Source: Paenibacillus sp. 481 (lineage in GTDB: Bacteria > Bacillota > Bacilli > Paenibacillales > Paenibacillaceae). Taken from it: a DNA stretch of 64,000 nt. The stretch is taken from assembly GCF_021223605.1 (NCBI RefSeq), contig NZ_CP075175.1, forward strand, positions 4,791,501 to 4,855,500, in the 5' to 3' direction. Positions 20,210-34,946 of the stretch are shown here, piece by piece; position 1 is the stretch's first letter; every line of letters starts with the position of its first letter. A program made the translations under genes and the position numbers. The notes beneath the pieces are model-generated. The model worked only from the letters and a program-made list of their open reading frames with translations, was not told the DNA's origin and searched no databases.

Positions 20210-20631
20210 ATGCATCCGGCTGAAAGGGAAATGAAGCGCGATCCCGAGAAACAACGTTTCATGTACGGTTGTCATTGGTCGTTAAGAGGTGGGGATGAGC
20301 GTGCGGTCGAGACGGCTTGGCCCGACAAATGTAGCTGTGGATTTTCAACTTCTCCGGATGCATTTCAGCTAACTGTTCAATCTTTATTGCATGATTTCAT
20401 GATCGCGGAAGCTTGTATTTCAGTAGGCATTGTCGTTTATGTTGATGCGTACAAAGGCAAGGATTCGGGGGCATGTTTGCTACAATTGCCTCCCGTAGCG
20501 ATCGTCATGCAAATATCGGTGTCGATTACATCGGTTGGGAAAGCATGTCTGTGTTACTGCACTTAGCTGATTTGCGGGACAAGCTGATCGTATTGAAAAC
20601 ACGGAAAAACGGTGCCGGTGGTCATGTTTAG
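20210..20631 (+). pseudogene. Uncharacterised ORF with a probable frameshift
   Basis: Two overlapping frames read as one protein. The first (20210 to ~20468) contains GCHWSLRGGDER and a C-SCGFSTSPDAFQL segment, ending with VDAYKGKDSG. From ~20469 the second frame continues GGMFATIASRSDRHANIGV, YIGWESMSVLLHLADLRDK and LKTRKNGAGG, stopping at 20631. One extra G in the G5 run at 20467-20471 would join them into ~140 residues. I do not recognise the family. No good ribosome binding site was found for the first ATG; an ATG at 20234 follows AAAGGGA too closely. Confidence 0.4.
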
Positions 20632-23557: not shown

Positions 23558-25123
23558 GTGTCGCAATTAACGCCAACATTGCCGGCAGGGAAGCTGTTGC
23601 ATGGGCGTTATCGCATCGAGCATTGTATCGGTGCAGGTGGAATGAGTACGGTATATTTGGCCCATGATGAGCGGCTAATGGGAAAGCGGTGGGCGGTCAA
23701 GATTTCGAAGCCAAGTCCGAATGAAGTTAGTCATTTGATGCATGAAGCAAGGCTGTTAACTGCTTTGCGGCACCCGAATTTGCCGCTTATCGTGGACTTG
23801 TTTCCGCCAGACGAATACGGTCTTGCGTACATGGTCATGGAATATGTGGAGGGGGAAAGCTTGGCGGAGACGATGAAGCGAGGGCCTGTACCATTTGCGA
23901 AAGCACTTCATTATGGCATTCAGTTATGTAATGCGCTGTCCTATTTACATCGGCAGCAACCGCCAATTGTGTTTCGCGATGTGAAGCCTTCTAATGTGAT
24001 GATTACGTGGCAGGATGACGTCAAGCTGATTGATTTTGGGATTGCTCGCAATGTGAAAGAGGGGGCGGTCGCTGATACGGTGAAGCTCGGTACGATTGGC
24101 TTTGCAGCGCCAGAACAATATACGGGCGATCAGAGCGATGCCCGTACAGACTTGTATGGGATAGGTGCATTATTGTCGCACATGCTTACAGGTGGTCGTT
24201 GGCAGGGAGCGGAGCCGCTGCGAATACGTCTGTTGCAGGCGGACGTCCCCCAATCGTTCGGACATGTGTTGTTAAAGCTGCTCGCTGAACGGCCTGAAGA
24301 TCGATATACCGATGCGGACGAACTTAAATTAGAGCTGCTGTCTTTTGGAGGCAGCGAGTCCAATACACGTATAAGCAACGTGATTGAGGATGAATCAGCT
24401 TCTGTTCAGCGGTTTCGCGGGATTCGTTCTACAGCGATGAACGTTGGTGAGAAAGCAACCGTTATCGCTTTTGCGAGTGCAGGGCGTGGCCTAGGTTGTA
24501 CACATGCAGCACTGCTTACCGCTTACAGCTTGAGCCAAGCACGCAACGGAAAAGTGGTGTACGTTGATGCGGGTACTCGTGATGGGCTTGTCATTAGCCA
24601 GCTACGAGCAGATTATGAAGGCGAACCTAGTGCTGTTGCGGCAGCACGCGAACGGTTGTATGGGGTGACGATGATGGCTTGGGGGAGTGAACCTAGTTTT
24701 GTTCCGATATTGCAAGCCGAGTTCCATTTCATCGTACTTGATTTAGGCTTGCTAGGTACAGAGGAACGGATAAGTGAGTTCATGCGTGCACATGCGCCCG
24801 TACTTATTTGTTCAACAATGCCTTGGCGAAAGGATGAAACATACGGCATAGTCGAACAGTTTCAGGCTCGTGGTTGGAAGGGATGGCTACTGGCCGCTCC
24901 GCATGGAAGTTGTCACAGGCAAGTAAATAAGCGCGAGGATTTGCAATGGTCAGCGGCTAAAATGTGCAACGATTTGCGCGTTGTCTTAATTCCAACATGT
25001 GCGCGCCCGTTTGAGTTTACAGAAAGTGAAGAATGGTTAGCGCAATTGTTAGGTACGACAAAAAATAAGCGTGTCTGGACGGACTGGTTTCGAACTGTCC
25101 ATGAATGGTTTCGAAAAAGATAA
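23558..25123 (+). CDS. Ser/Thr protein kinase fused to a degenerate MinD/CpaE-like domain
   Basis: 521 residues from GTG after GGAGGAGG. Residues ~17-260 are a PknB-like kinase: G-loop GAGGMSTV (25-32), Lys48, Glu63, catalytic loop FRDVKPSN (139-146, with F for the usual H), DFG (159-161) and AAPEQYTG. No transmembrane helix or PASTA repeat follows. Residues ~300-500 instead form a P-loop NTPase-like fold with IAFASAGRGLGCTHAAL, a deviant Walker A lacking the GK[ST] lysine, and KVVYVDAGT. It is the first gene of the Tad-like operon. I infer phospho-control or scaffolding of the apparatus. Confidence 0.85.
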   Translation: MSQLTPTLPAGKLLHGRYRIEHCIGAGGMSTVYLAHDERLMGKRWAVKISKPSPNEVSHLMHEARLLTALRHPNLPLIVDLFPPDEYGLAYMVMEYVEGESLAETMKRGPVPFAKALHYGIQLCNALSYLHRQQPPIVFRDVKPSNVMITWQDDVKLIDFGIARNVKEGAVADTVKLGTIGFAAPEQYTGDQSDARTDLYGIGALLSHMLTGGRWQGAEPLRIRLLQADVPQSFGHVLLKLLAERPEDRYTDADELKLELLSFGGSESNTRISNVIEDESASVQRFRGIRSTAMNVGEKATVIAFASAGRGLGCTHAALLTAYSLSQARNGKVVYVDAGTRDGLVISQLRADYEGEPSAVAAARERLYGVTMMAWGSEPSFVPILQAEFHFIVLDLGLLGTEERISEFMRAHAPVLICSTMPWRKDETYGIVEQFQARGWKGWLLAAPHGSCHRQVNKREDLQWSAAKMCNDLRVVLIPTCARPFEFTESEEWLAQLLGTTKNKRVWTDWFRTVHEWFRKR

Positions 25124-25180
25124 TGAAGGTAATGGCCAAAGGCAATGAGATGACATAGAAAGGAGCCGACGAGTCTAATT

Positions 25181-26440
25181 ATGCGATGGACGAGAAGAAA
25201 AAAGCAATTAGCTTGGTCAGCGGCATCCGGCGCACTGGCGGTGGGGCTGCTGTTCGGAGGGTACATTTATTTTGTTGAATCGAGAATGGTTGTGCAACGA
25301 GATGCGATAAAAGATCAGTACGAATCGGAGATTGAGCGCTTGCAGCGATTAGCAGATGAACAAAAAAAGCGAAAAGCATCTGTATGGGTATTTAGTGATT
25401 CTTTGGCAGCAGGAAAGCGAATCAGTGCTGAAGATGTTCGCCGAGTAGATATGAATATGGATAATGTCCCCAAAGTACGTCTTCAGCATGAAAATGAAAT
25501 TGTCGGAAAAGTGCTCAAAATTGATGTCAGTTCCCAAACGGCGATTATTCCGACGATGCTCTACGACGAAGTTAAGTTACGCGATGATACGAGATGGATC
25601 GAAACGAACGTGATTCAACTTCCGCTCGCGCTGTCCACTCAGGATCGAATTGATGTGCGCATTCGTTTTCAAAACGGTCAAGATTACGTTGTTCTGTCAC
25701 ACAAGGCTATTCAGCGGCTGGTCTTACCGACGCTATGGATGCACTTGGATGAGCAAGAATTGTTAACGATCTCAAGCGCTTGTGTCGACGCTTATGTGAA
25801 CGGAGGTCAATTGTATGCGGTGCGTTACGTAGAGCCCCACATGCAAAAGAAAGCCCCCGTCAATTATCCACCAAATGCAGCGGTGCAGAAGCTTATTTCG
25901 GAACAGCCGCATATTGTCAAAAGAGCCAGTGCTGCATTGTCTACATTTGCTCGTGAACGTCTAGAGCGGCAATGGGTCGAAGAGCGTAAAAAGGATGCTG
26001 TGCAAGGAAACAGCGCAGGTTCAACGATTTATTCATCATCTTATCCGCAATCTAATGGCACAAATAGCTCACATACGAATACAGCAAGTCATACGTCTAC
26101 GAATACTGGGAATGGAGAACAGCCCGCAACACATGACACAGCCCGTTACGGGCCGGCAGGTTATTCTTATTCTCCATTTACAGGCCTTGGTCCTGAATCA
26201 AGCCGAACGGCACCGTTTGTAGGTCAGAAGCAGTTTCCTTCGGCTGATCAGAAACAGGACCAGCAGAAAGAGCAACAGAAAGAGCAGCCGGCAGATTCGA
26301 AACTAGATCCGAAACGAAATCAGAATGATGATAAGGGTGCCAATCATCACGTTGAAGGGCAGCAAGTCCCACAAGATAGCCAACGAAATGCTAGCAGTCA
26401 AACCGAGATGCAGCGAAATGGGGTGGAGGGAGTACGATGA
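25181..26440 (+). CDS. SAF-domain membrane protein, CpaB/RcpC-like
   Basis: 419 residues. A single N-terminal membrane helix (~11-31) is followed by a coiled coil (~35-65) and a SAF domain (~68-128: SVWVFSDSLAAGKRISAEDV, then VGKVLKIDVSSQTAI). A less defined beta region follows to ~250. The tail (~285-419) is low complexity, rich in Gln, Asn, Ser and Thr, and resembles an exported linker. CpaB/RcpC proteins are periplasmic parts of Tad systems; here an outer-face role is inferred. AGGAG lies 15 nt before the ATG, longer than normal. The stop overlaps the next start (ATGA). Confidence 0.78.
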   Translation: MRWTRRKKQLAWSAASGALAVGLLFGGYIYFVESRMVVQRDAIKDQYESEIERLQRLADEQKKRKASVWVFSDSLAAGKRISAEDVRRVDMNMDNVPKVRLQHENEIVGKVLKIDVSSQTAIIPTMLYDEVKLRDDTRWIETNVIQLPLALSTQDRIDVRIRFQNGQDYVVLSHKAIQRLVLPTLWMHLDEQELLTISSACVDAYVNGGQLYAVRYVEPHMQKKAPVNYPPNAAVQKLISEQPHIVKRASAALSTFARERLERQWVEERKKDAVQGNSAGSTIYSSSYPQSNGTNSSHTNTASHTSTNTGNGEQPATHDTARYGPAGYSYSPFTGLGPESSRTAPFVGQKQFPSADQKQDQQKEQQKEQPADSKLDPKRNQNDDKGANHHVEGQQVPQDSQRNASSQTEMQRNGVEGVR

Positions 26441-27168
26441 AGACGACGATATTTATCGGTTCTTGTGATAAGAGCGACCATTTACTTGCGATTGCGACCA
26501 TTTTATCGCGCTTAGGGCGTAAAGTGCTCTTAGTTGATGCGACGACGTCACAGTGGATGAGTTATCGAATTGGAAAGTGGGCAGAAAAAATAAAAATTGT
26601 GAGTTGGAGCGGTTTTGATGTCGCTGTGAACATTATGAATTGGGAGGAGCTTGAAGAGCGGACAGCTTGTAGTGGCGAGTCGGTGTTTATGTATGACGAT
26701 GTTATCGTTGATACGGATCGGGTTGTGTTTTGTGAGCCACAGCGTTGGTCTGAAGCTGAACATCGTTTGTTGACACAAACGATGGAGAGGTATTGTGTGC
26801 ACAAAAATATAGAGTGGCTGCACACGTTTAATATTGTGCAAAACGAAGAAGAGAAATTAACGTTTATACCCGTTATGCTGCGAGAGCTGGATGATGATGA
26901 TTTCGAGTTTGTTGCGGAGCGGTATCGTTCTGCATTTACTCATGAATGGGCGTCAGCGGTTATTTCAATTCCTGATGACGAAGTGGATTGGGTAGCGAAG
27001 CTAACCTATGAGTATGAGGAGTTTATCGCTTTGCATGAATATGCCAAACAGACCAAAATAGCATGGCGGCAATTGTGTGAACTGATTGTTGGCCCGATCG
27101 CAGACAAGTCATGGAAGCAGTGCCTCAAAACTGACCGGAAGGGACGTACTAATTATGCTGCCATGTAA
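26437..27168 (+). CDS. MinD/CpaE-like protein without a functional P-loop
   Basis: 243 residues. The N-terminus TTIFIGSCDKSDHLLAIATILSRLGRKVLLVDA has the strand-loop-helix-strand shape of a MinD/ParA core, but the loop (residues 8-16) lacks the GK[ST] signature. Nucleotide hydrolysis is therefore unlikely. In Tad loci CpaE-type proteins localise the machine, which is the closest analogy. It is coupled by ATGA to the SAF gene and overlaps the next gene by 14 bp. Confidence 0.65.
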   Translation: MKTTIFIGSCDKSDHLLAIATILSRLGRKVLLVDATTSQWMSYRIGKWAEKIKIVSWSGFDVAVNIMNWEELEERTACSGESVFMYDDVIVDTDRVVFCEPQRWSEAEHRLLTQTMERYCVHKNIEWLHTFNIVQNEEEKLTFIPVMLRELDDDDFEFVAERYRSAFTHEWASAVISIPDDEVDWVAKLTYEYEEFIALHEYAKQTKIAWRQLCELIVGPIADKSWKQCLKTDRKGRTNYAAM

Positions 27169-28096
27169 AAATTGGGTTGTAACACCAGGTGTACACGGAT
27201 GCACAGGTGTTACGTCGATTACGGCTTGCCTTGGCATGATCCTTGCTTGGCAGTTTGGGTTCAAAGTGCTGATCGCTCATCTTGGTCGCAGGGGAGACGG
27301 GGTAGAGGAGATGTTTGCGGGGCATCAACCCGAACTGGACATGAATCATTTTAATGAATCGAGCAGTGTGAATCCATCCAGTACTTTACTCCCAAATGGC
27401 TGGGATGCTTTGCAACGTTTGGCTGTTCACGGTCGGCTGAATCCGTCATTGCTTATTTCTTGTACGATACCCGTCATGCGCAATTTAGACATTTTGCCAG
27501 GATATGATGATTCGAGTCTAGAAGCTGCCACGGCCACGCTGAATATGACGGCTACGCACCAGCAAACGCAACAAACGATAGCTGCGCTGCTGGAACAAGG
27601 GGCTCTTCATTATGACATTGTGCTGTGGGCTGACAATGTACGTATGCAAGGTAGCTATGCAGGGGGGCCAAAGGCGAATAAGCGCGTTGCAGAGCTGATA
27701 CACAACGATGTGCGATCACATTTGCTGCATCAAATTGTTGTGCTCCCGCAGCAAAAGGCACTTATTGAGCAAGCACTGGTGGATCAAGGGCGTCAGGGTG
27801 CTTCAGCGTACGTGATAGGCGCCTATGATGAAATGGCGCGATGGAATATTGCAAATGTACGGCGAAAATTTAAGTTGCCCCAACCTATTTTTGCTATGCC
27901 ATATGTGACAGCGTATCGAAATGCACATGAGGATGGAAATATGACTACTTGGTTTATACGACAATGCCAACTTTATGAAAAGGGGAAAGAGTCGGCCTTA
28001 GTCAAGCATATGTTGCGACTTGCGCAGTATGTTATGCAAGAGTCGGGCATGAATGAACGTCCCGCATGGACAGAAGGGCGTGACCGAAGTGGTTAA
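27155..28096 (+). CDS. Second MinD/CpaE-like NTPase-fold protein
   Basis: 313 residues. The N-terminal WVVTPGVHGCTGVTSITACLG (~7-27) follows the deviant Walker A spacing of MinD proteins but with C-T-G-V-T-S in place of G-x-GKT. It is followed by FKVLIAHLG and later YDIVLWADN (Walker-B-like position). Start ATG 27155 follows GGAAGGGA. Together with the kinase C-terminus and the preceding gene this makes three consecutive NTPase-fold modules, none with a canonical lysine. A scaffold or heteromeric regulator is the likeliest role. Confidence 0.65.
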   Translation: MLPCKNWVVTPGVHGCTGVTSITACLGMILAWQFGFKVLIAHLGRRGDGVEEMFAGHQPELDMNHFNESSSVNPSSTLLPNGWDALQRLAVHGRLNPSLLISCTIPVMRNLDILPGYDDSSLEAATATLNMTATHQQTQQTIAALLEQGALHYDIVLWADNVRMQGSYAGGPKANKRVAELIHNDVRSHLLHQIVVLPQQKALIEQALVDQGRQGASAYVIGAYDEMARWNIANVRRKFKLPQPIFAMPYVTAYRNAHEDGNMTTWFIRQCQLYEKGKESALVKHMLRLAQYVMQESGMNERPAWTEGRDRSG

Positions 28097-29933
28097 GTGG
28101 CTGCTCATTGGCATGATTGTGATCGCTGCAGGTTGGTTCATATGGCGGTGGCGTCAAACGAGGAGACAGCGTATTTCACAACCCGATCATCATTGGACAT
28201 GGGATAAACTTGATACGGTTGTACGTGAATCATTTCAATCATGGACATCAGAGCCTGTACTTGATTATTTTGCAGACGATGAAAAATTCAAGCGAGAGTA
28301 TCAGCGGCGGTTAGCATTGAAGCAAGCTTTAAAAGGCTGTTGTAGCGGGGATCCGGCAGACAAAGAATTCATTAAAGACGTGATCGTCGATATGTTGGTC
28401 AAGCATGTAAAATTGTCGGCTAATCAAATGAACCAATTAATAGATTTTGAACAGCCCGCGCAATTGTCCGCTACTGACAAATTTGATTTGCTGCTATTCG
28501 GATATAAATGTCGTTGTGGCTATGATGCGTTGCATGAACTTATACAAGCGTATAGCTGGGACGAATTGAAAAAGTTAGATGACCTTTCTGGCAAGGATGA
28601 GCAATGCTATGTCATTACTGTGCAGGACGTAGAGATTGCTTTTAGACAAGAGAGGTTTACGTTTACGAACGAAGAAAAATTGGCCATAATCGCACAACGT
28701 CTCTATCAACGGTTTAAAGGTTTCTCTGTGATCGATGAAATTCGTGACATGTGTATAGACGGGGTGTCTGGGGGCGTGAACGGGATAACAGGTCATGTTC
28801 GAAAAGGTACTGTGCCGATATATGCGCATGATAGCGTGTGGATTTTTTACCGAGGAAAATCAATTCGACTAGCTTTTTTATCGTTCGGTAGTGAACGAGA
28901 GTTGAAGAGGGTTTGTCATAACATCTATAAATATGGTGCTCCTGGGCCGTTAACGGAAGCGGATGGGTATCGAGTGAATGATATGAAGGACGGTTCGCGA
29001 GTTGTCGTACTTAGACCACCTTTTAGTGAATCTTGGGCTTTCTTTGTTCGCAAATTTGACGCTGAGCATGCGACGCTTGAGCATCTGATTACAGACCGAA
29101 ATGCGGAAATTCCGATACGCTTGCTACAGTTTATGATGAAAGGAGCACGTATTACAGCGATTACGGGTGCGCAAGGTTCAGGAAAAACAACAATGCTCAT
29201 GGCATTAGTGCAGTCGATATACAGCTTCCATACACTGCGTGTGCAGGAGCAGGCGTTTGAATTGAATTTGCGCCGTATTTACCCGGACAGAAATATTTTA
29301 ACGTTACGCGAAACAGAACGAATTACAGGACAGGCAGGGTTGGATGTACAGAAAAAAACGGACGGCACTGTACACATTTTAGGAGAAGTCGCAACAGACC
29401 CTATTGCAGCATGGATGGTGCAGATGGCGCAAGTAGCGAGCTTGTTTACGGTGTTCACACATCATGCGAAGACGTTTTCAGACCTCGTGTTCTCACTTCG
29501 CAATTCATTATTAAAAACAGGCATGTTTCATAACGAGCAAGTAGCTGAGCAACAGGTCGTTAACGTCATACATTTTGATATTCATTTAGCGCGAAGTGCA
29601 GATGGGAAACGTTATATTGAGCGGATTACGGAATGTATTCCAATTGAAGCTGCTGCTGAAGATTTTGCTTTATTAGATCAAGCTGAGCAAGGGGAACAGG
29701 GGGCGAACTGGGGACAGTTTATACATACAACGGCTTCAGCTGTTCGTCATTTCACGCGATCACGAAAGTTTCAATACCGCAACATTGTGGAGTATCGGAA
29801 TGGTAGCTACATATGGGTTAACAGTTTGACTGCGGGGCAAGTAGCGGATATGGCTACGCATATGACCGCTTTGGATAAACAGCGTTTTTATGATTGGCTG
29901 GCCCAGGAAGGGAGGGTGCCTGTGAGCGCATGA
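28089..29933 (+). CDS. TadA/CpaF-like secretion ATPase with N-terminal membrane anchor
   Basis: Hexameric motor family of type II secretion/Tad pili. The protein is ~614 residues, longer than usual CpaF. It begins with one membrane helix (WLLIGMIVIAAGWFIWRW, ~3-21), unlike most cytosolic TadA proteins. Walker A is ITGAQGSGKTTML (codons near 29160-29200). The Walker B region is VHILGEVATDPIAAW, and the His box FTHHAKTFSDL follows. GTG 28089 lies 10 nt after AGAAGGG; ATG 28053 is an alternative start that overlaps the previous gene more. The stop overlaps the next ATG. Confidence 0.85.
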   Translation: MVKWLLIGMIVIAAGWFIWRWRQTRRQRISQPDHHWTWDKLDTVVRESFQSWTSEPVLDYFADDEKFKREYQRRLALKQALKGCCSGDPADKEFIKDVIVDMLVKHVKLSANQMNQLIDFEQPAQLSATDKFDLLLFGYKCRCGYDALHELIQAYSWDELKKLDDLSGKDEQCYVITVQDVEIAFRQERFTFTNEEKLAIIAQRLYQRFKGFSVIDEIRDMCIDGVSGGVNGITGHVRKGTVPIYAHDSVWIFYRGKSIRLAFLSFGSERELKRVCHNIYKYGAPGPLTEADGYRVNDMKDGSRVVVLRPPFSESWAFFVRKFDAEHATLEHLITDRNAEIPIRLLQFMMKGARITAITGAQGSGKTTMLMALVQSIYSFHTLRVQEQAFELNLRRIYPDRNILTLRETERITGQAGLDVQKKTDGTVHILGEVATDPIAAWMVQMAQVASLFTVFTHHAKTFSDLVFSLRNSLLKTGMFHNEQVAEQQVVNVIHFDIHLARSADGKRYIERITECIPIEAAAEDFALLDQAEQGEQGANWGQFIHTTASAVRHFTRSRKFQYRNIVEYRNGSYIWVNSLTAGQVADMATHMTALDKQRFYDWLAQEGRVPVSA

Positions 29934-31993
29934 ATACAACTTGGCTAATCACTATTGCTTTTTTATGTGTCCTAATGAGTTTTTTATTATGGAAAATGGC
30001 TAGGCGTAAAGAGCGACAGCAAATAGGGATTACGTTGAGTGCTGAATCTTCTGTGAAGAAGGTGCTTAGACAGCTGTTGCGACGGTTATACGTACTGTTT
30101 ATTAGGTTGCCACTCGTTCGCATTAAAGCGCGTTCCGTTCGGGAACAACTCGCTCCTGTTTATTCTTACGATGAGTGGAAGCTAAGGGAGCAGACTGCGG
30201 CTATTATTGTTGGCAGTAGTCTCGTTATGATGATGGCCTTGGGCTTATTTTTATCATTTGAGCAGGATGTGCTGTCTTGGTTGATGCTTATTGTCCTGCT
30301 TAGTGTTGCTGAAAGTTTGTATACTGATTTCGTCATTCAGCGAGCTGAGCTTCAATTGCTGCGTCAATCCGTTTATGTGCTGGCCGATGTCCGCCAGTCT
30401 TACCATCGATGCCGCATCGTTGAATCTGCGCTCGAGGAAGCACTGGAGCGTGCTGCTGCGTATGCGGCCCCGCATATGCAGCGGCTGCTTCAAATGCTGC
30501 AAGAGCCAAATCCAGATGTCGCGCTTGCAGCATACGAGGAAGCGGCTCCCAATCGGCATTACAAACTATTCGCAGGGTTATCGCGGTTAGTGGCGGAGTA
30601 CGGTGATCCGCCACAGCAAAAAGGGTCGTCTTATTTGCAAGGCATATCAATGATAGTGCAAGAAATGCAAACCGAGGTCGTATTGCGAACAAAGCTAGAT
30701 TATTTATTAAAAGGATTGAAAGTCATTGCGGTGGCTCCTGTGTTGTTTGCAGATCCATTAGAAATGTGGGCTAGAACTCATTTTCCGACTATGGATGCCT
30801 TTTATGACAGTAAATTAGGTTGGTCACTGCAAGTTGCCGTGTTTATTGTTGTGCTGACTAGCCATAAACTGCTTGGATATTTACAGTGGCGGAGTGAGCG
30901 CCCGCGTCCGCAGGAACAAGCTCGCCGCCGCTGGGATGAACCGATCTGGAAACTTACTTTCGCTCAACATGCGGTTAAGCGCTGGATGTCTCGTATTGAG
31001 GTAAGGAAATTGAGCATTTTGCATAAGCGACTGCAAGAAGCGAATGAAACGATTCCGCTATCTAGATTTTATTTGCGGCGACTTTTATATAGCTCACTAA
31101 CAACGCTACTGGCATTTGTGTTCGTGGTGCTCCTACAAGTACAGGCTAAAGATTGGCATATTGAACGTCTTGCCGAACGTCTTATATCCTTGGAGCAGGC
31201 GCACGGATACCATCCTCAATATAATGCCAGAAGCCATAATGCTGTACGGATACATTCTCACGAGCATTGGCTGCGGCAGGTCGTACAAGATGAGAGCAGG
31301 CTTGAAGGGAAGGGACGTTTACAACAAGAGATAAGCGAGCTTTACACTAGCTCAGGAGATGTTTTTTTGGGACATGCAGTTGAAGCGATCGTTCATTCTG
31401 CTGAGCGAATACGGAATGATAGCTTAGGCTGGCAACAGATGCTGCTTATTTTATTCGTCAGCTATACGACATACTACGTGCCTGTGTGGATGCTGCTGCT
31501 ACGTATTCGGCTTAAAGAAATGGAAATGCGCACAGAATTAAGCCAATTCCACTCGCTTGCTCTACTGCTGCGTGCTTTTCGTAAACTGACGGCTGAGCAG
31601 TTACTGGAATGGATGACGCGTAGTGCCGTCGTGTATCGACGAGCTTTGGAGCGCTGTTTATTGAACTGGGAGAGCGGGGCGGATGACGCGCTTGACACCT
31701 TGAAAAAAGACGCGCCATTCCCTGACTTTGTAAGATTCGTCGATCGGATTGCGCTGGCGCACAATTATGTACCGCTTCAGGAAGCTTTCGATGATGTAGA
31801 TCAAGATTGGCTGTATGAACAAGAAATGCGTAAGCAGCATCATGAGCGCACGATTGACGCCAAAGCGGGTTGGGGGCAATGGATTGGATTTGCTCCTATG
31901 TATGCTTTAATTTTTATTTACTTAGTTATTCCGCTGTTGTGGATGAGTACGCAGCAGATGCAGCAATCTTTTGATCAGATTAGACAGTTATAA
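29930..31993 (+). CDS. TadB-TadC-like inner-membrane platform protein (apparent fusion)
   Basis: 687 residues with seven likely membrane helices: ~4-22, ~89-109, ~114-133, ~300-317, ~385-404, ~503-523 and ~652-672. Two long cytosolic helical segments lie between the paired helices, the pattern expected if two type II secretion F (TadB and TadC) domains are joined. Standard Tad loci use two separate ~300-residue proteins. Start ATG 29930 overlaps the ATPase stop, behind AGGGAGGG. The domain call rests on position after TadA and topology rather than on a strong motif. Confidence 0.72.
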   Translation: MNTTWLITIAFLCVLMSFLLWKMARRKERQQIGITLSAESSVKKVLRQLLRRLYVLFIRLPLVRIKARSVREQLAPVYSYDEWKLREQTAAIIVGSSLVMMMALGLFLSFEQDVLSWLMLIVLLSVAESLYTDFVIQRAELQLLRQSVYVLADVRQSYHRCRIVESALEEALERAAAYAAPHMQRLLQMLQEPNPDVALAAYEEAAPNRHYKLFAGLSRLVAEYGDPPQQKGSSYLQGISMIVQEMQTEVVLRTKLDYLLKGLKVIAVAPVLFADPLEMWARTHFPTMDAFYDSKLGWSLQVAVFIVVLTSHKLLGYLQWRSERPRPQEQARRRWDEPIWKLTFAQHAVKRWMSRIEVRKLSILHKRLQEANETIPLSRFYLRRLLYSSLTTLLAFVFVVLLQVQAKDWHIERLAERLISLEQAHGYHPQYNARSHNAVRIHSHEHWLRQVVQDESRLEGKGRLQQEISELYTSSGDVFLGHAVEAIVHSAERIRNDSLGWQQMLLILFVSYTTYYVPVWMLLLRIRLKEMEMRTELSQFHSLALLLRAFRKLTAEQLLEWMTRSAVVYRRALERCLLNWESGADDALDTLKKDAPFPDFVRFVDRIALAHNYVPLQEAFDDVDQDWLYEQEMRKQHHERTIDAKAGWGQWIGFAPMYALIFIYLVIPLLWMSTQQMQQSFDQIRQL

Positions 31994-32082
31994 CAGGACG
32001 CGACATTGGCCATTGATAACTAAATTAATGAATAGATATCTAACTATTAATGGGACTAAATAATAATTAAGGGGTTGAAGCA

Positions 32083-32559
32083 ATGAATAATGCACAGACG
32101 GCTCTCAAGGTGGCGGCAGGTATTTTTTTAACAATAGCTTTGATTACAATCGTTGTATTGCTGTTCGTATCCGCACAAGAAGCGACGAAAACGGCGCAAA
32201 ATGAGTTCTCGTCGATTCAGACGGAGTTAAGTAAGGCATCCTTTACGGTGTATGACAATACATCAGTAAGTGGTTCGCAAGTTATTAATGCGATTCGTAA
32301 ATTTCATAAGCAGGATCAGTTTGGAATTCGTGTTATTACAGGGAAAAACAAATTCAGTGATAAAAATCATAAAGGTCAATATTATGGTTTGAGCGTTACA
32401 GATGCTGGAACATTCGACGGCTCTAATCGGAATGACAGTATCGAGGAGGCTATCTCTGAATCAAAGGATGCATATGTGAATCCGAGCGGAAAGTTCAAAG
32501 CTAAAGTCATTTTGGATTCTAGCAATGTCATTCGCGGGATCGTTTTTAATCAGCAGTAA
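32083..32559 (+). CDS. Pilin-like single-anchor protein, probable major subunit
   Basis: 158 residues. The N-terminal hydrophobic helix (~9-31, KVAAGIFLTIALITIVVLLFVS) continues as an amphipathic helix (AQEATKTAQNEFSSIQTEL) and then SVSGSQVINAIRKF, with a small beta-rich domain at the C-terminus. This is pilin architecture, but the classical G|x4-E prepilin site is absent. Related proteins in Firmicutes Tad-like loci are often misnamed ABC transporter permease. It has its own AAGGGG site, an 89-bp leader, and a terminator after it, all consistent with higher expression than its neighbours. Confidence 0.7.
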   Translation: MNNAQTALKVAAGIFLTIALITIVVLLFVSAQEATKTAQNEFSSIQTELSKASFTVYDNTSVSGSQVINAIRKFHKQDQFGIRVITGKNKFSDKNHKGQYYGLSVTDAGTFDGSNRNDSIEEAISESKDAYVNPSGKFKAKVILDSSNVIRGIVFNQQ

Positions 32560-32602
32560 ACTAAGGTAGTTACAAGTGTAAGGATAATTAGGGTAATTAG
32601 TT

Positions 32603-32643
32603 AGGGTACTTAGGATATCAGATACAACAAGTACCCTTTTTTT
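32603..32643 (+). terminator. Internal terminator after the pilin-like gene
   Basis: AGGGTACTT (32603-32611) pairs with AAGTACCCT (32629-32637), followed by seven T residues. The downstream minor-pilin-like genes start 23 bp later without an obvious promoter, so it probably allows partial readthrough. Confidence 0.85.
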
Positions 32644-32665
32644 CTAAAAGTAAGGGGGGAGTTCT

Positions 32666-33046
32666 GTGGAAGCTAACACGCGCAGCATGATTGAGTTTGC
32701 TGTCGCATGCACCATGTTTATGAGTGCGTTAGGATTATCGTTTGAGTTAGTGCGGAGTAATACGAGTACGATAACAGCTCTGTTTTCACAAAATCTGATT
32801 AAAGATCGCAACGTCAACCACACTTTGACACAAGCTCAAGCTCCGGTTATTTTAGGTGCTGAAATTGTACACATGATAAGGTTCATTTCCGAGCTGAGTA
32901 TTGACATCGAAGTGGAAGGGCATCTTTTTAGACCGGACACAGCTATTGATTCACTAGATTTATCTTTTATAGCAACGCAAAAAAGGTACAGCGTCGTTCA
33001 AATACGAGATGAAGTGGGCAAGCTCGTACGTCTTCGTTACGACTAG
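32666..33046 (+). CDS. Minor pilin-like membrane protein
   Basis: 126 residues from GTG after AAGGGGGGAG. An N-terminal hydrophobic helix (~8-28, IEFAVACTMFMSALGLSFELV) precedes a short periplasm-type domain. The segment VILGAEIVHMIRF parallels SGSQVINAIRKF in the preceding pilin-like protein, suggesting common ancestry. No cleavage motif is clear. It is operon-linked to the next three genes. Confidence 0.65.
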   Translation: MEANTRSMIEFAVACTMFMSALGLSFELVRSNTSTITALFSQNLIKDRNVNHTLTQAQAPVILGAEIVHMIRFISELSIDIEVEGHLFRPDTAIDSLDLSFIATQKRYSVVQIRDEVGKLVRLRYD

Positions 33047-33056
33047 GGGGAGTTGT

Positions 33057-33608
33057 GTGTCAAATTCAATCGAAAAGCTTGTAGGTGTGCTGCTGTGCAT
33101 TTTGCTATTGTTCATTTACCCGCTAATGGACTTTTTTCAGCGACAGGATGATATTTCTTCCATGTATGTGTTTAAAAGTGTAACTGCTTTTGTTGATGCT
33201 GCACGGGACAAGGGGTTCGTTACGCCGCAAATGTATGTAGATTTTACACGTGAGTTGGAGCAAACCGGAAATATGTTTCATGTACAAATGGAGCATTATC
33301 AGAAGAAATATGATCCCCTTTATGAAGATCCGAATCATGCATCAAGCTTTAAAAATGATTTTCTTGTCCATCATGAGCTTGTAAATACGGAGGGTATATT
33401 ATTGGTGATGTTCCCCGATTCTAAAGAACCTATGGATGCACTTAGTCGTCGTTATGAGATGAAAGCTGGCGATTATTTTAATGTTATCGTAAACAATGCA
33501 AACCGCACTAAAGCGACAGTGTTGCACGAGTTTTTAACTCAATCTTTAAGCTCAAATGAAAAGATCGTCATTCCTGTAGGGGGAATGGTGCGTAATGAAG
33601 ACTATTAA
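33057..33608 (+). CDS. Pilin-like protein of the Tad-like locus
   Basis: 183 residues from GTG 33057, set by TAGGGGGAG. N-terminal anchor at ~8-26 (VGVLLCILLLFIYPLMDFF). The following region, SVTAFVDAARDKGFVTPQMYVDF and MFHVQMEHYQKKYDPLYED, is a pattern I associate with uncharacterised proteins in Firmicutes Tad-like clusters. It starts 10 bp after the previous stop and overlaps the next gene by 14 bp. Confidence 0.68.
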   Translation: MSNSIEKLVGVLLCILLLFIYPLMDFFQRQDDISSMYVFKSVTAFVDAARDKGFVTPQMYVDFTRELEQTGNMFHVQMEHYQKKYDPLYEDPNHASSFKNDFLVHHELVNTEGILLVMFPDSKEPMDALSRRYEMKAGDYFNVIVNNANRTKATVLHEFLTQSLSSNEKIVIPVGGMVRNEDY

Positions 33609-34563
33609 ATTAGCTATTTTTTTCGTACTTATTTTGTCGCCTTTTTTTTGGCATAACCGTCTTTATTCGCAAGAACAAATGTTCAATTTACATACGGAGC
33701 AAAAATACAATCAGATGTTAAATACGGCTGTCGATGATGCAGCCTTGATTCTTCAGCAATCAGCAGTTTGGAAAGAGGCAGAAGAGGGGTACGAATCGGA
33801 TAAACGGCTACAATTAAACAAAGAGCTGGCGCTGCAAACTTTTTTTCGTTCATTGCACCTTAATTTGCAAATTGTGACTGATCCTATTAGTCAATTACAA
33901 CTGAAAAATTATATTCCAGTCGTGCTCTTGCTCGGTTACGACGGGTATGAGCTGTATGCTGAGGAACAATTTGTCGATACGAAACAACAAGTACAGTTCA
34001 CACATGTTTGGATGCCTAAACGGCCATACAGTTATGTTGATCCACATGGAAACGTGTTCTCATTTACACTAGATGATTTTGTTACGGTGTACACCACCAC
34101 TGGACAATGGATTAGAGGATACCAACGTGAATTGCAATTGTCGACTCATATTCCGCTTTTGCAAGATGAAAAATCGTTTGATGCTGTGCGCCGTACGATG
34201 ATTGTTAATCGGGTACAAGAAGATGTAGCTTATCGTATTAATTTGCACAATGAGTGGTCAAAACGAAACGGTGTTGCATACACATTTACACTGCCGACCA
34301 TTTCAACAGAGGAGTGGCATAATTCAATAGACGATGTAGGTATTATCGCTTTCGTTCAGGGATTGCCGATGGGTACGGCTCGTTACAACAATTATGCGTT
34401 AGGTGGAGCAAGATTAATAAGGAATGAGTATGTCTATGGTACGACTATTCAGGGGATAAAGGTTGCTTATCCTCAAGCTTGTAAGCCGATAGTGATCGAG
34501 GAAACGTTCACAGGTGCGCGTGAAGCAGCAAAACAAGGGTATTATCCGAAGCGGTGTAAATAG
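33595..34563 (+). CDS. Exported or anchored protein ending the Tad-like operon
   Basis: 322 residues. A short N-terminal hydrophobic segment (~4-19, IKLAIFFVLILSPFFW) acts as signal or anchor, followed by a long helix (residues ~28-60) and a large soluble domain containing YSYVDPHGNVFSFTLDDFVTVY. Size and topology suggest a tip or minor subunit of the surface structure. It has no recognised enzymatic motif. The ATG lies within the end of the preceding gene behind GGGGGAA. No terminator is evident before the riboswitch. Confidence 0.65.
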   Translation: MKTIKLAIFFVLILSPFFWHNRLYSQEQMFNLHTEQKYNQMLNTAVDDAALILQQSAVWKEAEEGYESDKRLQLNKELALQTFFRSLHLNLQIVTDPISQLQLKNYIPVVLLLGYDGYELYAEEQFVDTKQQVQFTHVWMPKRPYSYVDPHGNVFSFTLDDFVTVYTTTGQWIRGYQRELQLSTHIPLLQDEKSFDAVRRTMIVNRVQEDVAYRINLHNEWSKRNGVAYTFTLPTISTEEWHNSIDDVGIIAFVQGLPMGTARYNNYALGGARLIRNEYVYGTTIQGIKVAYPQACKPIVIEETFTGAREAAKQGYYPKRCK

Positions 34564-34660
34564 TGGAAAATATGCAGGGGTAATTTGGTAACAAGTTCTT
34601 TCCAAACGAAAAAAATCGTGATACACTTACGGAGCATTGCACAATAAGAATACATATCTA

Positions 34661-34755
34661 TCACTAGGGGTGCCATCTTGGATGGCTGAGATGAAGCAAA
34701 TGCTTCGGACCCTTAGCACCTGATCTGGATTATGCCAGCGTAGGGAAGTGTGGAT
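34661..34755 (+). ncRNA. TPP riboswitch (THI element)
   Basis: The aptamer is read from its conserved blocks: GGGGTGC near 34667, CTGAGATGA at 34686-34694, ACCCTTAGCACCTGATCTGG near 34709-34728, then GCCAGCGTAGGGAAGT near 34734-34749. It binds thiamine pyrophosphate and should switch off the thiamine operon that follows. About 210 nt separate the aptamer from the terminator. Confidence 0.95.
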
Positions 34756-34946
34756 TGATTGGTGAGAACGACAACCATTAAATGATGTGTCTAACGAATT
34801 GGCAAGCTCAATCATGCTGGGCAGACGAATACATTGTCTGTATGATACTGCGAATATCAACTGTGCACGTGGTTCCGTCCGCTAGGGACGTATCATTGTG
34901 CCACGACAAGTTGACTAGCTGAGCTGCTTCCAAGTTTTTGACACTC

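Follow-up and report, generated by a model that had tools for sequence, protein, structure and literature searches.

Layout and components of the operon

We analysed a window of 64,000 nucleotides (C1:4791501-4855500) of the 5.69 Mb single-contig genome of Paenibacillus sp. 481 and studied the operon at window positions 23558-34563, which resembles the loci for Tad/Flp pili. The list of open reading frames (ORFs) of the window shows ten co-oriented ORFs here, all on the + strand and with short gaps or overlaps. The product of gene 1 (23558..25123) joins a Hanks-type Ser/Thr kinase to a degenerate TadZ/MinD-like domain (residues ~275-521), and gene 2 (25181..26440) encodes a SAF or CpaB/RcpC-like protein with an N-terminal hydrophobic segment. 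Genes 3 (E1, 26437..27168) and 4 (E2, 27155..28096) encode a TadZ-like protein and a TadZ/CpaE-like protein, respectively. They are followed by a TadA/CpaF-like secretion ATPase with, judged by eye, an N-terminal hydrophobic helix (gene 5, 28053..29933) and by a platform protein with a TadB-like N-terminal half and a C-terminal half that is perhaps a second TadB/C-like unit (gene 6, 29933..31993). The 3' part consists of gene 7 (32083..32559), coding for a leaderless pilin-like protein and candidate major subunit; gene 8 (32666..33046), its paralogue and a candidate minor subunit; gene 9 (33057..33608), for a small anchored protein that served as module marker; and gene 10 (33595..34563), for a 322-residue anchored protein that is a candidate minor subunit or tip base. 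The probable starts of genes 4, 6 and 9 are at 27155, 29933 and 33057; that of gene 9 is a GTG supported by a 38-row alignment of relatives, the ORF being listed from 33009, and the ATG of gene 6 overlaps the stop codon of gene 5.

Profile searches with the gene 5 ATPase gave CpaF structures as the top hits (E value of 5.5e-18, over 262-537), followed by FlaI, an archaeal type II secretion ATPase, VirB11 and PilT; its match to TIGR03819 (1.6e-10) was below the cut-off. The Walker A G and K, E445 and an HH pair were invariant in 26 aligned rows, and the ATPase thus looks active. Comparisons by hhalign with the canonical Tad proteins of the same genome matched the N-terminal half of gene 6 to TadB at 86% over 233 columns, and the C-terminal part of gene 1, gene 4 and gene 3 to TadZ at 94%, 89% and 75%, respectively. 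Against the eight canonical Tad targets, all remaining pairs stayed below 10% except that of the gene 6 C-terminal half with TadB. Genes 3 and 4 matched each other at 92%. The usual P-loop lysine was missing from all three TadZ-like domains. The kinase part of gene 1 matched Pkinase at 1.7e-36 and kept the catalytic K, D and N and the DFG motif in 28/28 sequences. Gene 2 matched ChapFlgA at 1e-5 and TIGR03177 (CpaB) at 7.8e-9, with 35 bits where 71 are needed. Among the ten products, no peptidase or secretin family was found by profile scans, and no EssC/WXG100, VirB4, coupling-protein, relaxase, DNA-binding or channel family was matched. An earlier note, made from the DNA alone, had described the ten genes as a kinase/MinD fusion, a SAF protein, two CpaE-like proteins, a TadA-like ATPase with a P-loop (its Walker A motif was confirmed), a Tad-like platform protein and N-terminally anchored small proteins, with neither secretin nor prepilin peptidase; these assignments all held. 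It had also considered that profiles might place the ATPase and the membrane protein in an unrelated system, and instead the ATPase fell with CpaF and the N-terminal half of the membrane protein with TadB.

Gene-order conservation in relatives

We fetched 120 related loci in two sets of 40 and 80, with at least 16 loci common to both, and scored the gene order only among genes found by the ORF caller. The order was kept in 107/120 loci (39/40 in the first set and 68/80 in the second), which argues for an operon beyond chance. The sole exception in the first set had a second, canonical TadA further downstream. Ten of the 12 exceptions in the second set had an extra E1-like (ParA-like) call upstream; in the other two, a family-7 gene came after gene 9 (L108) or an extra SAF call was present (L152). 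All nine post-kinase genes were called in 17/40 and 40/80 loci, and at least seven in 34/40 and 74/80; by eye, uncalled genes were often displaced by longer antisense ORFs. The nearest named loci by ATPase identity (59-64%) were from Paenibacillus dendritiformis, P. apiarius, P. profundus, P. popilliae, P. alvei and other Paenibacillus.

Some loci differed in content. An extra ParA-like gene of ~275-320 residues preceded the module in L107, L109, L111, L113, L125 and five more loci; together with a ParB gene confirmed in L055, it hints at a plasmid or element origin. Six loci from metagenome-assembled genomes of Clostridia (L150, L152, L155, L156, L166 and L168) had three or four consecutive family-7-like genes, and their gene 10 was longer or split. 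L070 and L071 carried a divergent module subtype, with ATPases 35-40% identical, in genomes lacking DUF5704, the protein family described below; an M23 peptidase gene adjoined the module in L070.

Family 7 lacks a prepilin cleavage site

Family 7 begins with M-x-N-A-x-x-A-L immediately before a hydrophobic helix. The motif was found in 77/79 relatives, preceded in the ORF calls by 0 to 15 residues (69 in one overlong call), and M1, N3, A4, A7 and A11 of gene 7 were invariant in 37 rows. None of the 80 family-7 sequences contained a prepilin-type cleavage site (G-x4-E), as the earlier note had claimed for the pilin candidate of the window, and the same scan detected its controls, namely the 61-residue Flp pilin and two TadE proteins from the classical Tad set of the same genome. 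A loose version of the scan gave matches in 5/66 gene 8, 2/72 gene 9 and 15/78 gene 10 sequences; we did not count these as leaders, since most listed examples span or precede the likely start methionine.

Genes 7 and 8 are paralogues (92.5% by hhalign over 131 columns). Genes 7-10 matched the TadE proteins of the genome, which were single-sequence targets, at no more than 2.5%, and none of the four matched a known pilin or TadE profile. The claim of four pilin-like proteins held in part only; genes 7 and 8 are related to each other and may, judged from their sequences, be pilin-like. Flp was absent from the 25 families listed for 37 gene 7 relatives in the Pfam scan, and neither these nor the 38 gene 9 relatives scanned agreed on any one family. 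DUF4153, matched weakly in 17/37 gene 7 relatives, was dismissed as a chance match to the membrane helix. In sequence searches of the PDB, genes 7, 9 and 10 gave chance-level matches only. Gene 10 had 15 invariant columns in 48 rows. Among the examples listed, some gene 10 orthologs started with M-K-x-I-E-W and thus had at position 5 the Glu known from mature pilins.

A single A24 prepilin peptidase is encoded in the genome, at C1:3429956, within a separate classical Tad locus. The TadV-type peptidase that the earlier note had proposed to look for thus exists, outside the operon. In a sample of 197 genomes of the family, an A24 gene was present in all 105 genomes with the module and in 195 genomes overall, and the test of peptidase independence through A24 absence therefore failed. 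Unlike DUF5704 (see below), classical TadB was found in 58/59 genomes regardless of the module. At C1:3407735-3423938 (L079, L080), the classical tadA of Paenibacillus sp. 481 is split into two parts ~15 kb apart; between them lie unrelated genes and a 77-residue integrase-like ORF.

The operon shares with Tad/Flp (type IVc) systems the CpaF-like ATPase, the TadB-like platform, the TadZ/CpaE-like proteins, the small membrane subunits at the 3' end and, less certainly, the CpaB-like SAF protein. Unlike them, it has a long platform gene, three TadZ-like domains, one of which sits on the kinase, and an ATPase with a hydrophobic N-terminal helix, and no TadV, TadE/F or prepilin cleavage site was found in it. 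The locus is Tad-like and not Tad proper, because the cleavage site, a peptidase within the locus and TadE were all looked for and none was present. The suggestion that assembly might differ from classical Tad agrees with this result.

Three genomic settings of the module

The kinase-headed form occupies a conserved chromosomal place. A kinase domain was present in 20/40 and 37/80 loci of the two overlapping sets, L045 being left out of this count as it matched only via its MinD-like part. Upstream of the operon, the window has genes for an ABC transporter and an FtsJ-type methyltransferase, and a relative of the methyltransferase gene was present in 51 of the 57 kinase-domain loci. A strong ATPase match was obtained in all 19 genomes sampled from the genus (Paenibacillus sp. 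481 included).

Copies without the kinase were found on large plasmids of Thermobacillus, Paenibacillus (three), Cytobacillus, Alkalihalophilus, Lysinibacillus and Butyrivibrio. In 6/8 of the plasmid stretches (L083, L084, L086-L089), a coupling-protein or Replic_Relax gene was annotated. Other kinase-less loci had VirB4/TraG and M23 genes (L045), an M23 gene (L051, L070, L103) or a ParB gene (L055) beside them.

The third setting is beside type VII secretion system (T7SS) genes. In L063 and L067-L069, the module adjoins an EssC-like FtsK/SpoIIIE ATPase, with a WXG100 gene in L063; the WXG100-like and ubiquitin-like genes that we had named by eye in L067 matched no Pfam family. A second T7SS lineage was seen in genome G139, where a T7SSc-like set (EssC-like, WXG100, vWA and kinase genes) and RHS-type genes lie beside the module. 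T7SSc is a separate machine, and by coordinates an EssC relative was within 15 kb of the module in six genomes (G139, G182, G070, G049, G159 and G120). Paenibacillus sp. 481 has its own T7SSc-like locus (C1:3436341-3445180), with EssC-like, WXG100, vWA, PP2C and YukD genes, away from the operon; a 771-residue protein at the kinase position of that locus matched no Pfam family at 0.01, and its naming as a kinase was dropped. Pfam checks of names given by eye upheld EssC-like, vWA, WXG100, YukD, PP2C, ParB, M23, RAMP and integrase.

In an ATPase tree, the kinase form grouped together, as did the T7SS form of the L063/L067-L069 lineage, and the plasmid copies were scattered outside the kinase group. 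The tree was made by a quick method from 120 length-filtered sequences, reduced to 79 after a near-identity cut, with a long outgroup. The kinase group appeared as one change with a support of 50, and of 95 for 39 of its 41 rows.

Part of this has been described before. Garrett et al. 2024 (PMC11217815) reported, in the passages on these loci, that Tad pilus genes adjoin T7SSg (in Paenibacillus and Acetivibrio) and T7SSh, and left open whether the adjacency is a coincidence. The modules of L063 and L067-L069 are probably these Tad genes. Unlike them, the copy in the window is headed by a kinase and chromosomal, and no T7SS genes adjoin it. Those passages do not include DUF5704, plasmids or leaderless subunits among their points. 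The word 'undescribed' in the earlier note was therefore partly right.

DUF5704 genes co-occur with the module

A gene with an SLH, stalk or copper-amine-oxidase-N domain and a DUF5704 gene follow the module in 6/8 plasmid stretches (L083, L085-L089), and the same pair was found in the kinase-type loci L091 and L092. We therefore counted whole genomes. In the family sample, the module (ATPase match with E < 1e-100; the next weaker match was 2.5e-16) was present in 105 and DUF5704 in 100 of 197 genomes, and all 100 were among the 105 (p of 9e-51, uncorrected for phylogeny). An order sample of 119 genomes with protein 9 as marker gave 57 with the module and 55 with DUF5704, again all inside (p of 5e-32, likewise uncorrected for phylogeny); of the 55, 20 were new and from outside the family, and the remaining 35 had already been counted in the family sample. 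The two genomes with the marker only had E values of 3e-5 and 8e-4. In a phylum sample of 249 genomes, module and DUF5704 occurred in the same three genomes, which were also shared with the other samples. Genera with a patchy distribution mostly showed both together, for example in 5 and 5 of 22 genomes (g13), 4 and 4 of 8 (g5) and 1 and 1 of 20 (g17).

The DUF5704 gene of Paenibacillus sp. 481 (C1:3536510-3539785) lies 1.28 Mb from the operon, and in 11 further single-contig genomes looked up the distance was at least 0.9 Mb; linkage alone is therefore insufficient for the co-occurrence. In at least 34 of the 100 genomes, DUF5704 was within 15 kb of the module. By eye, both DUF5704 and its partner protein start with signal-peptide-like segments. 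In G139, four of the seven DUF5704 copies were 19-42% identical over the first 400 columns, 59-62% over the middle and 91-100% over the last 500, compared to 13-22%, 39-44% and 51-66% over the same parts in ten DUF5704 proteins that included these four. The near-identical C-terminal ends suggest gene conversion. The co-occurrence of DUF5704 with the module is new here, and our literature search found no publication mentioning DUF5704 and nothing on leaderless pilins.

Two surroundings of DUF5704 genes are recorded as observations. In G139 (C1:5634001-5690000, L210-L212), the stretch by the T7SSc-like locus and the module alternates between DUF5704/SLH-like pairs and RHS-type and lipase-like genes. 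In Paenibacillus sp. 481 (C1:3530185-3539785, L209), the DUF5704 gene adjoins RAMP-superfamily (type III CRISPR-like) genes.

Other features of the window

A terminator-like hairpin with a T-run lies 3' of gene 7 on the + strand (32603..32645). The evidence for it is weak and comes from the window only, with a minimum free energy of -11.3 kcal/mol, a z-score of -1.34 and 23/200 shuffles equal or better, and a stricter terminator scan of the window did not pick it up. Conservation of a terminator at this place was not supported, one being found in 27/57 loci and in 54/168 random control stretches. The promoter scan was near background (28 found vs 20.2 expected, standard deviation of 5.0). A thiamine pyrophosphate riboswitch (34656-34763) is directly downstream of the operon, followed by genes that look by eye like thiamine genes. 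A 118-residue ORF at 20210-20566 had no Pfam match; the related locus L128 has a 288-residue AP_endonuc_2 gene there, of which the ORF is possibly a remnant. A phage origin of the module was dismissed, as only two weak matches were found among 50,697 records.

A proposed function and its alternatives

We tentatively favour, at somewhat less than even confidence, a cell-contact device in which a Tad-like motor with leaderless subunits, encoded by the operon, works with DUF5704 proteins. Its CpaF-like ATPase and TadB-like platform would extrude a short surface filament or pseudopilus, with gene 7 as the major and genes 8-10 as minor subunits that start at the membrane helix. Since they begin directly there, we propose that a prepilin peptidase would not be needed. 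The SAF protein and the three degenerate TadZ-like modules would position the machine, and the Hanks kinase of the chromosomal form, which is joined to one of these modules, may act as a switch. The exported DUF5704 and its copper-amine-oxidase-N or SLH partner would form a variable adhesive or receptor-binding surface part. In relatives, plasmids and elements that carry transfer-type genes could use the device to contact mating partners, and beside type VII toxin loci it could make contact with targets. The conjugative type IV pili of TP114 with their PilV shufflon offer a functional analogy: they are plasmid-borne filaments that contact recipients through exchangeable adhesin ends, and their PilV variants choose the recipients (PMC9045228). 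The likeness of PilV and DUF5704 is one of proposed function; DUF5704 varies at its N-terminal end and is a separate protein that, by eye, bears a signal peptide.

Several results weigh against this proposal. Because all 105 module genomes carry A24, processing in trans is possible. The pilin fold of the subunits is putative, genes 9 and 10 have no family or structure match, and the C-terminal half of gene 6 matched TadB at 17.6% and TadC at 0.8% only (hhalign). In these comparisons, the canonical TadZ profile consisted of two sequences and each TadE target of one. MOB-suite typed 8/8 plasmids as non-mobilizable, which makes us less confident. Regarding DUF5704, the genome counts carry no phylogenetic correction, the plasmid stretch L084 showed none, and L090 had only a protein resembling its C-terminal end. 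The module was more frequent than DUF5704 in two genera (8 vs 4 in g12 and 1 vs 0 in g4), and DUF5704 was absent from the module genomes G028, G046, G083 and G171, with ATPases ~40% identical, and G117. The T7SSc-like EssC tracked the module far less (47/105 genomes with the module vs 10/92 without), and the variable-N/constant-C pattern was examined in one genome (G139). Furthermore, the motility of Paenibacillus sp. NAIST15-1 did not change after two putative pili loci had each lost two genes by deletion, and the authors of that report identified no pilin gene (PMC5072692). Our guess, unconfirmed, is that one of these loci is an ortholog of the operon (L096).

The same co-occurrence data would also fit a secretion machine, in which a short type II-like pseudopilus moves DUF5704 and its partners through the wall and S-layer and no pilus is formed. 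The signal-peptide-like starts would make such a two-step route possible. However, the conserved N-terminus of gene 7 and the gene 7/8 paralogy fit polymerising subunits equally well and a monoderm lacks an outer membrane that would have to be crossed, and we regard this explanation as unlikely. That the operon makes an ordinary Tad pilus, with subunits processed by the TadV peptidase of the classical Tad locus, is improbable. The single A24 peptidase of the genome and its presence in every module genome would allow it, and Garrett et al. 2024 call the T7SSg-adjacent genes a full Tad pilus set in the passages concerned (PMC11217815). However, the cleavage site is missing from all family-7 sequences and yet present in the Flp pilin of the same genome; the ATPase, SAF and platform proteins fall under the curated cut-offs, and Flp and TadE were not matched.

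The coupling-protein, VirB4/TraG, M23, Replic_Relax and ParB neighbours of the kinase-less copies would fit DNA transfer or uptake, with a part of a conjugation channel on plasmids being domesticated for competence on the chromosome. The position of the plasmid copies outside the kinase group in the quick tree, and the finding of no other unbroken T2SSE-type gene in the Paenibacillus sp. 481 genome, are consistent with this. However, the T7SS settings and the exported, variable DUF5704 need no DNA, the plasmids were all typed non-mobilizable, and the ten products matched no DNA-binding or channel family, which leaves such an apparatus quite improbable. We give the least credence to a membrane signalling or wall-remodelling complex with genes 7-10 as anchors and not filament subunits. 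An active-looking kinase heads the operon, genes 7, 9 and 10 lack pilin, TadE and PDB matches and gene 8 a Pfam match, which speaks for it; however, about half of the loci or fewer (20/40 and 37/80) have the kinase domain, and the motor and subunit genes stay together.

Returning to the cell-contact device, a broader version is doubtful, although it would reach further: a distinct Gram-positive branch of type IV filaments, leaderless and peptidase-free, with DUF5704 proteins as interchangeable targeting tips. It would be one portable apparatus in three settings, namely the transfer of plasmids or elements, the secretion of type VII toxins and the kinase-controlled chromosomal form.

To our knowledge, every known type IV filament requires a prepilin peptidase; if the proposal is true, subunits whose sequence begins with the membrane helix would break this rule. 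The question of coincidence raised by Garrett et al. 2024 is also touched, since the module also recurs on plasmids and next to another type of T7SS, with the same DUF5704 partner family in most sampled module genomes. DUF5704, a family of no known function, gains through its strict link to the module a machine and a testable role.

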